This document shows positions 49,127-63,784 of a stretch of DNA of 64,000 bases, in pieces; position 1 is the stretch's first letter; every line of letters begins with the position of its first letter. Under the pieces are notes generated by a model, which saw nothing but the letters and a program-made list of their open reading frames with translations, ran no database searches and had not been told where the DNA came from. The position numbers were made by a program, and so were the translations under genes. Source of the DNA: Kiritimatiellia bacterium (GTDB lineage: Bacteria > Verrucomicrobiota > Kiritimatiellia > UBA8416 > JADHWI01); assembly GCA_016783565.1 (NCBI GenBank), contig JADHWI010000001.1:44978-108977 (forward strand), in the 5' to 3' direction.

Positions 49127-49163
49127 CCCGGAATCAACAACACGCAACCGCATTAGATTCGCT

Positions 49164-49352
49164 AGTGTCCCATAAGAACGCCGGCGTTGGAGTGCGGGAG
49201 TACTGGAGTGTTGGGTTGCAGAGACTTACGCAAGTCGCTTGACTCGATGCGACAGAAGGCATTTGATGGGTTGCCTCTTTCTCCAATGGCCCAAAGGGCC
49301 TACCCCCATTACTCCAACTCTCCATCACTCCTCCATTCTATGGGATGACACT
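49164..49352. repeat. MITE-like element, copy A
   Basis: AGTGTCCCATA at the left and TATGGGATGACACT at the right form inverted ends; ~93% identical by eye to copy B at 63060-63252. Confidence 0.75.
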
Positions 49353-49604
49353 GATTGCATTTGATTATTCTCCGAAGCCACAATGACCTGAAGGGTCTGT
49401 CCCCATCACTCCCCATCACTCCTCGACCAAAAAAAGAACGATATACACAAGCATAATACCTATCGATACTAAGACTGACTTCAGATGCCAGATACGCAAA
49501 CTTCGTTCAGCATCGCTTTCCACCTTGCGCAAGCAGGCAGGCTACTGCTATTTTTGAGGTTTTCATTGAGCAGAATATGGCTCATAAAACCGAACAGGTT
49601 GATC

Positions 49605-61710: not shown

Positions 61711-63033
61711 TCAGTCAGTACCAACCGTTAATCCTGACTGGTCCCCCAACTGTGAAGTTGCATATAAGGGAAGAAAAAACAGCTTCTGTTCAGGCAACTC
61801 TCTGTAGGGACCGCTCTGCAGAACCATCCCTTGAGGGCAAGCAGGATAATTTTTCAATAGCAAGTGTAGACTTCTCAATTTTCCCGCTGCTCCGGATTTG
61901 ACCTCAACAGGGTATATCAGGCCATCTTTAACTGCCAGATAATCAACCTCAGCGTTTGAACTTTTTTGTTCACGGGACCAATAATAGAGTTCGCGGCCAT
62001 GCCAGGCAATAAGCTCCTGAGCAACAAATTGCTCCGCAAGCTTTCCCCTATAAATAGCCAGAAGGTCACTAACTGCCATCTCGGTTTTTTTGTTCACTTC
62101 GCAAAGACGTTGCATCAAACCAATATCCAGCATGCATGTCTTAAACTTCTTTCCATTCAGATTGGCCGCAAGAGGAAGACCAGAAGGATTACTGGATGGC
62201 ACTTTATGAAGCACTCTCGCTTTTACAAGCTGATAATAGGCTTTGCGGTTGGTGACCCCTGAAAAATCACGACACAAACTTGCGTAGTTCACCTGTTCTC
62301 CAACGCCCAAAGTTGCTTTACGCAAAACCGCATCCAAACATGAAATATCGACTGACGGTTTGTATTTTGCAAAATCCTGACGATACGACTCCAGTATTTC
62401 GCCCTGAACTTGGAAAACCTCATTAAATGAATTGCTGTCTTTGTAGACAGATATACACTCCGGCATTCCCCCTACAAAAAAGAAATTCCTTAACTCTGAT
62501 AAAATCGCATCACTGCTTAACGTTGATACTACCTTTGGTGGTTTTAATAGTTCCTCAGCCATAACATCCTTACCCAGAGCCAGCAGATACTCATAGAATG
62601 TCATTGGATGCAGGTGAAGATACTGAACTCTCCCGACAGGTACAGATATGGATCCAAAGGCAAACTCCAAGAGAGAGCCAGCGGCAACTACATGTAAATC
62701 AGGCATCTGTTCATAAAAATAGCGTAAAGCCATTATCGCTCGGGGAGTTTGCTGTATTTCATCTATAAACAACAGCGTTTTCCCCGGTATTATCCGTCCT
62801 TTTTGAACTTCAAGTTCACGAACTATACTTTGCGGGTTTATATCCCCTTCGAACAAACGCCTTAACGATTGCTCTTTTTCGAGATCAACTTTGACTAGGT
62901 TCTCAAATTCTCCAGCCAATGTATTTTCGACCAGCCAGGATTTGCCTACCTGCCGCGCGCCACGAATAATTAAAGGTTTTCTCCGTGAAGATGCTTTCCA
63001 ATTGAGTAATTTCTCTTCTACCAAACGTTTCAT
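61711..63033 (-). CDS. AAA+ ATPase with DUF4143-like C-terminus
   Basis: IIRGARQVGKSWLVENTL Walker A, TLLFIDEIQQTPRAI, AEVDYLAVKDGLIYPVEVKSG; start at 63033 (GGAGGGATT upstream). Confidence 0.9.
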   Translation of the reverse strand: MKRLVEEKLLNWKASSRRKPLIIRGARQVGKSWLVENTLAGEFENLVKVDLEKEQSLRRLFEGDINPQSIVRELEVQKGRIIPGKTLLFIDEIQQTPRAIMALRYFYEQMPDLHVVAAGSLLEFAFGSISVPVGRVQYLHLHPMTFYEYLLALGKDVMAEELLKPPKVVSTLSSDAILSELRNFFFVGGMPECISVYKDSNSFNEVFQVQGEILESYRQDFAKYKPSVDISCLDAVLRKATLGVGEQVNYASLCRDFSGVTNRKAYYQLVKARVLHKVPSSNPSGLPLAANLNGKKFKTCMLDIGLMQRLCEVNKKTEMAVSDLLAIYRGKLAEQFVAQELIAWHGRELYYWSREQKSSNAEVDYLAVKDGLIYPVEVKSGAAGKLRSLHLLLKNYPACPQGMVLQSGPYRELPEQKLFFLPLYATSQLGDQSGLTVGTD

Positions 63034-63059
63034 AATCAATCCCTCCTTAAAATATAAAC

Positions 63060-63252
63060 ACTGGCATCCCATAGGGACGCCAGTGTTGGAGTGCGGGAGT
63101 ATTGGAGTGTTGGATTGCAGAGACTTACGCAAGTCGCTTGACTCGATGCGACAGAATGCATTTGATGGTTTGCCTCTATCTCCAATGGCCCAAAGGACCT
63201 ACCCCCATTACACCAACTCTCCATCACTCCTCCATTCCATGGGATGCTACTG
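63060..63252. mobile_element. MITE-like element, copy B, with target-site-duplication-like flanks
   Basis: Inverted ends CTGGCATCCCATAG / CCATGGGATGCTACTG; direct repeat AAATATAAAC at 63050-63059 and 63253-63262. Confidence 0.75.
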
Positions 63253-63340
63253 AAATATAAACTAACATTACTATATTGATTTACAAATACAACCCTTTTT
63301 ACACACCTTTCCTTTACAAATACAACCCTTTTTATCAGCC

Positions 63341-63784
63341 GAGGGCTTTATAGCCGCCATCACACAGCATATACCCGAGAAAGGGTTTCAAATGGTGAGG
63401 TACTATGGTTGGTACAGCAATAGAGCAAGAGGCGAGCGTGCAAAAAAGCAAGCGGAGGTTGCTGAACATGATACCCCCGCAGGCATTCAGGTAATTAACG
63501 TCTCAGACTACCAGCCCAGGCGACTGCCCTCTAAAAAGTGGCGGGAGCTTATAAAGCAGGTGTGGGAGGTCGATCCGTTTGACTGTCCAAGGTGCGGCTC
63601 AGAAATGAAGCTCATCGCACTGATTGATGATAATGAGGTTATTGAGAAGATACTGCGCCATCTCGACCTCTGGCCGCAGGAAGCGATCCCCGCACGTGCT
63701 CCACCCAAGACGGTTATGCATGAATATACACTTGAGCCATTCTTTGATGGCTACTCTTATTATGACGAGGCCGTCGCAGGATAA
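63341..63784 (+). pseudogene. C-terminal fragment of IS91-like (Y2-type) transposase
   Basis: EGFIAAITQHIPEKGFQMVRYYGWYSNRARGERAKK...CPRCGSEMKLIALIDDNEVIEKILRHLDLWP; N-terminal catalytic half absent. Confidence 0.78.

Follow-up and report, generated by a model that had tools for sequence, protein, structure and literature searches.

A probable IS4Sa-related MITE in the leader of an ATPase gene of a Kiritimatiellia bacterium

Directly upstream of an ATPase gene, near the end of the 64,000-nucleotide stretch of Kiritimatiellia DNA analysed here (the window), lies a short non-coding segment with inverted ends, bracketed by a direct repeat. This arrangement raises the question of whether the segment belongs to the leader of the gene or was inserted there by transposition, and in the latter case by which transposase. 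We consider it very likely (probability about 0.94) that the segment is a non-autonomous MITE of an IS4-family, IS4Sa-like insertion sequence (IS), with ends recognised in trans by the transposase of the full-length IS. The relevant features are as follows.

49162..49353, + strand: second MITE copy in the window, more diverged
61711..63033, - strand: AAA_14/DUF4143 ATPase gene
63050..63058, no strand: left copy of the 9-bp target-site duplication, AAATATAAA
63059..63252, + strand: non-coding MITE copy of 194 bp, delimited by alignment with other copies
63059..63074, + strand: left terminal inverted repeat, CACTGGCATCCCATAG, 16 bp
63059..63085, no strand: palindromic left end, CACTGGCATCCCATAGGGACGCCAGTG
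63082..63117, + strand: left arm, an array of about four 8-bp words of the GGAGTRNT type
63117..63156, + strand: 40-bp core singled out by the earlier note
63210..63234, - strand: right arm, an inverted array of 8-bp words (ACTCC words)
63237..63252, - strand: right terminal inverted repeat, 16 bp, reading CAGTAGCATCCCATGG on the - strand
63253..63261, no strand: right copy of the 9-bp target-site duplication, AAATATAAA

An earlier note on this DNA, made from the sequence alone, had described a non-coding element of about 193 bp between 10-bp duplications. The element itself holds, and its exact borders, placed by alignment with other copies, give it a length of 194 bp. The flanking direct repeat is likewise exact, but it is 9 bp long; a 10-bp repeat occurs in no other copy and was rejected, the apparent tenth base being due to a chance match between the first base of the element, C, and the base that follows the right duplication. 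The inverted ends are 16-bp imperfect terminal inverted repeats, CACTGGCATCCCATAG and CAGTAGCATCCCATGG being identical at 13 of 16 positions. The inverted inner segments are real as well, as the RNA of both strands folds better than that of shuffled sequences (z of -3.8 and -4.2). Neither the element nor any other copy of it has the capacity to encode a transposase.

A search of the genome with the element gave 21 matches: about nine copies are full-length, several are truncated, and the remaining matches are isolated ends. The copies lie on different contigs at unrelated intergenic sites, and the neighbouring genes vary from one copy to another. The pattern of the ends has 17 genomic matches, and 12 places carry the palindromic left end, with no match in the reversed control for the former or in the control for the latter, and MITEs with the same palindromic end are also present in related genomes. 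The genome-wide search for the ends, which the earlier note had suggested, thereby revealed many dispersed copies.

Target-site duplications were assessed for every length from 5 to 13 bp in the flanks of 21 MITE copies from this and other Kiritimatiellia genomes. Exact repeats of 9 bp were found in nine copies and of 8 bp in one, with none of any other length, and none of 420 cross-paired flanks matched. Exact 9-bp duplications flank four copies in the genome of origin, including one split between contigs C42 and C72 for which comparison of the flanks gave the duplication ATTCGTTAA; a fifth copy has 8 bp. Age or rearrangement may account for the 12 of 21 copies that have no exact 9-bp duplication. 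The second copy in the window, which is older than the one at the ATPase gene, has no detectable target duplication in its flanks. Constant synteny without duplications, named by the earlier note as contrary evidence, was not seen; exact 9-bp duplications and differing neighbours were found instead. The duplicated sites of MITEs and IS elements, taken together, have an A+T content of 74%.

Two further types of occurrence were noted in the same genome. Four copies or fragments are clustered within 16 kb of contig C68 (G000:C68:4690-20188; L006, L008, L012 and L013), where they are flanked by a different word-array repeat (AACATCGAACATCGAAT) as well as by direct repeats about 70 bp long, and have no 9-bp duplications. 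At G000:C65:9503-9528 (L019) and G000:C38:59700-59726 (L021), the palindromic end stands alone over about 26 bp, with no other part of the element present; these occurrences are either remnants or minimal elements.

A full-length transposase gene between matching ends, for which the earlier note had also proposed to look, is present both in the genome of origin and in relatives. The IS found on contig C70 (G000:C70:8566-10045) is 1480 bp long, with ends CACTACCATCCCATAG and CACTAGCATCCCATAC that match the MITE ends at most positions, and it is flanked by a 9-bp duplication, TAACGCGAA. It is the sole full copy of an IS matching the MITE that was found in this genome and, judging by its sequence, it is apparently intact. 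Its 408-codon open frame encodes a DUF4372 domain and a DDE transposase, recognised by the NCBIfam model IS4_1 (NF033592) with 230 bits against a cut-off of 115. Four further full-length IS elements in relatives (L099, L100, L123 and L126) agree in ends and duplication, and exact 9-bp duplications flank all five full-length IS copies for which both flanks are available. One related genome (G071) contains two IS-sized elements between ends of the same type, with DUF4372 and DDE_Tnp_1 transposases and 9-bp duplications. The IS of this genome designated L100, with ends CACTGGCATCCCATAG and CACTGTCATCCCATAG, the first of them identical to the MITE end, co-occurs with MITEs having the same type of end.

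When the loci of 68 public relatives of this transposase were searched free of any prior end motif, ends of the form CAC[AT]GCCATCCCA[TC]AG accompanied by 9-bp duplications emerged in 9 of them; none of 68 shuffled loci gave such a result. Genomes with the transposase are richer in ends (Mann-Whitney p = 0.00025), in counts that include the ends of the IS itself and are uncorrected for phylogeny. Some genomes are rich in ends with the transposase undetected, e.g. G018 and G021, both of which are incomplete assemblies. Only the ends of about 16 bp are common to MITE and IS, and comparison of the MITE interior with the IS gave no internal sequence indicating derivation by deletion from the IS.

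The IS4 family is defined by the motifs D(60-110)D(100-150)E and Y(2)R(3)E(6)K and by duplications of about 10 bp, and its IS4Sa subgroup by ends of the form CA------T (C1, A2, T9), a length of 1150-1750 bp, direct repeats of 8-10 bp and the YREK motif (De Palmenaer 2008, PMC2266710). The C70 transposase displays D(67)D(104)E and Y(2)R(3)E(6)K (YKARWNIETFFKQIK) which, with the 9-bp duplication, accord with the family. The end CACTACCAT..., the length of 1480 bp and the duplication likewise fit IS4Sa, so that end signature, size, duplication length and YREK motif are all shared with the subgroup; the MITE itself differs in having no transposase. The partner may thus be called IS4Sa-like, a placement that follows from ends, size and duplication length rather than from a tree with reference elements.

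Shared ends, 9-bp duplications, dispersed copies and an IS in the same genome together make mobilisation in trans by an IS4Sa-like transposase the most likely origin of the element. The DUF4372/DDE transposase produced by the full-length IS would recognise the 16-bp ends of the MITE in trans, excise it and insert it into AT-rich DNA at a cut staggered by 9 bp, and repair of the gaps at the insertion site would then yield the 9-bp duplication. Such cut-and-paste chemistry is presumed here by analogy with that described for the IS4 family, and we infer that the C70 transposase probably mobilised this particular copy. Several features by which a MITE is recognised are present: the length falls within 50-1000 bp, no transposase is encoded, the inverted ends are bracketed by a target duplication, the copies are dispersed, and an autonomous IS has ends of the same kind. 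Dispersal, duplications and the matching full-length IS support the MITE interpretation of the earlier note, and most of the checks that it proposed turned out in its favour.

A different transposase, such as that of another IS4-family element in the same genome or of an IS now lost, might instead have moved the MITE. The other element, on contig C28 (G000:C28:2641-3705, L120), has CACTACTGTCCCAA as its ends and is apparently flanked by a 9-bp duplication, ATAAATATT, and only one full copy of the MITE-type IS was found, on C70. However, the C28 ends differ from those of the MITE (CACTGGCATCCCAT), whereas those on C70 agree with the MITE at most positions, and the presence in a relative of an IS with the exact MITE end CACTGGCATCCCATAG (L100) also argues against C28; we regard this alternative as improbable.

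Two other explanations dispense with transposition altogether, and both seem scarcely credible. The palindromic end, the strong fold and the palindromic ends standing alone at a few places (C65, C38) might recall a palindromic repeat of the REP/BIME type or a structured RNA with a regulatory role. RAYT-linked REPs, however, are short palindromes tagged GTAG/CGTC (PMC3733652), whereas 16-bp inverted ends, target duplications of 9 bp and a partner with a DDE transposase of the IS4 family are found here. Against an RNA, a search of the element against Rfam gave no match at E values up to 1, and the 40-bp core is not conserved in relatives having the same ends. The element might also belong natively to the AAA_14/DUF4143 ATPase gene as its regulatory leader, given its position directly upstream of the ribosome-binding site and its terminator-like hairpin; yet other copies adjoin unrelated genes, and homologues of the ATPase with 57-64% identity in four genomes (G016, G015, G027 and G022) lack the element. 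The REP or RNA explanation is already contradicted by the target duplications, and that of a native leader is contradicted as well.

Within the MITE, the 40-bp core was described by the earlier note as invariant, which does not hold beyond the window: it is identical in the two window copies, has substitutions in other copies of the genome, and is lacking in relatives whose elements have the same ends but different interiors. No match to the core turned up when public genomes, a set that possibly excludes the records of this genome, were searched for its pattern. The core was also considered as a conserved RNA and rejected, since it varies among copies and is missing in relatives.

The inner arms consist of arrays of 8-bp words, GGAGTRNT. 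Convergent arrays of this type without IS4-type ends were observed on many contigs of G036 (e.g. L023, L029, L037 and L226), a genome with 138 matches to the array against 0 for the reversed control and with the end motif absent. Further such arrays occur in G001 (L245, L254) and at G000:C2:2850-2879 (L228). Convergent arrays are often 60-200 bp apart, and some apparently lie within open reading frames (L037). It is tempting to speculate, although we find it rather doubtful, that the inner arms represent a separate class of dispersed repeats, spread in Kiritimatiellia without IS4-type ends and captured between such ends. If this were true, IS4 transposases would now be carrying a modular hairpin, made up of different words in different host lineages. 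How MITEs come by their interiors is a question on which both the arms and the palindromic end bear.

Bacterial MITEs in general (reviewed in PMC10969869) are likewise short, non-coding and intergenic, with inverted ends, target duplication, strong hairpins and a possible terminator effect; the present MITE differs in its asymmetry, a full palindrome being present at one end only. A precedent for repeats inside a MITE is the BrickBuilt element of Porphyromonas gingivalis (PMC4596501), which is also intergenic, contains tandem repeats between IS-like ends and has a similar copy number (19). BrickBuilt features 23-bp tandem units, IS5-type ends and short duplications of variable length, in contrast to the 8-bp words in inverted arms, the IS4-type ends and the 9-bp duplications of the present MITE. 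Among the papers listed by literature searches on MITEs of the IS4 type, on DUF4372 and on MITEs of Kiritimatiellae, none was found to describe this family. The family is new but ordinary in kind, its only unusual features being the palindromic end and the word-array arms. An anonymous repeat is now tied to a specific group of transposases (DUF4372, IS4Sa-like), and the end sequence together with the 9-bp target rule makes it easy to annotate repeats of this sort in Kiritimatiellia.

The location of the copy in the 5' leader of an AAA+ ATPase gene, as the earlier note had it, was borne out. The gene is of the AAA_14/DUF4143 type, and the insertion separates its ribosome-binding site from the upstream region, element and duplication starting 16 bp ahead of the ATG and immediately preceding the ribosome-binding site. 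Read on the - strand, the palindromic left end and the T-rich duplication resemble an intrinsic terminator hairpin directed towards the gene; judged by this sequence resemblance, transcription entering the gene could be attenuated there. A promoter scan gave one weak match, about as many as shuffled sequences give. When, in search of an empty site at the ATPase gene, the flanks of the insertion were joined and aligned with the leader of the homologue in G016, the score was 54, compared with a mean of 34.5 and a maximum of 57 for shuffles. The resemblance between the two leaders, which includes two direct repeats 33 bp apart in both, is thus only suggestive.

The repeats in question are two identical copies of 22 nt (TTTACAAATACAACCCTTTTTA) upstream of the ATPase gene, at 63280-63301 and 63313-63334, 33 bp apart, and the leader of the G016 homologue contains a similar pair (GGTTGT...) with the same spacing. 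This pair possibly represents a regulatory repeat now parted from the ATPase gene by the MITE. AAA_14/DUF4143-like ATPase genes also adjoin other copies of the ends, at L011 (G000:C51) and L116 (G031:C45), which may be due to chance, such genes being common. Directly upstream of the element, at 63392-63784 of the window, lies the remnant of the C-terminal part of an IS91-type transposase, recognised by a weak NCBIfam match.
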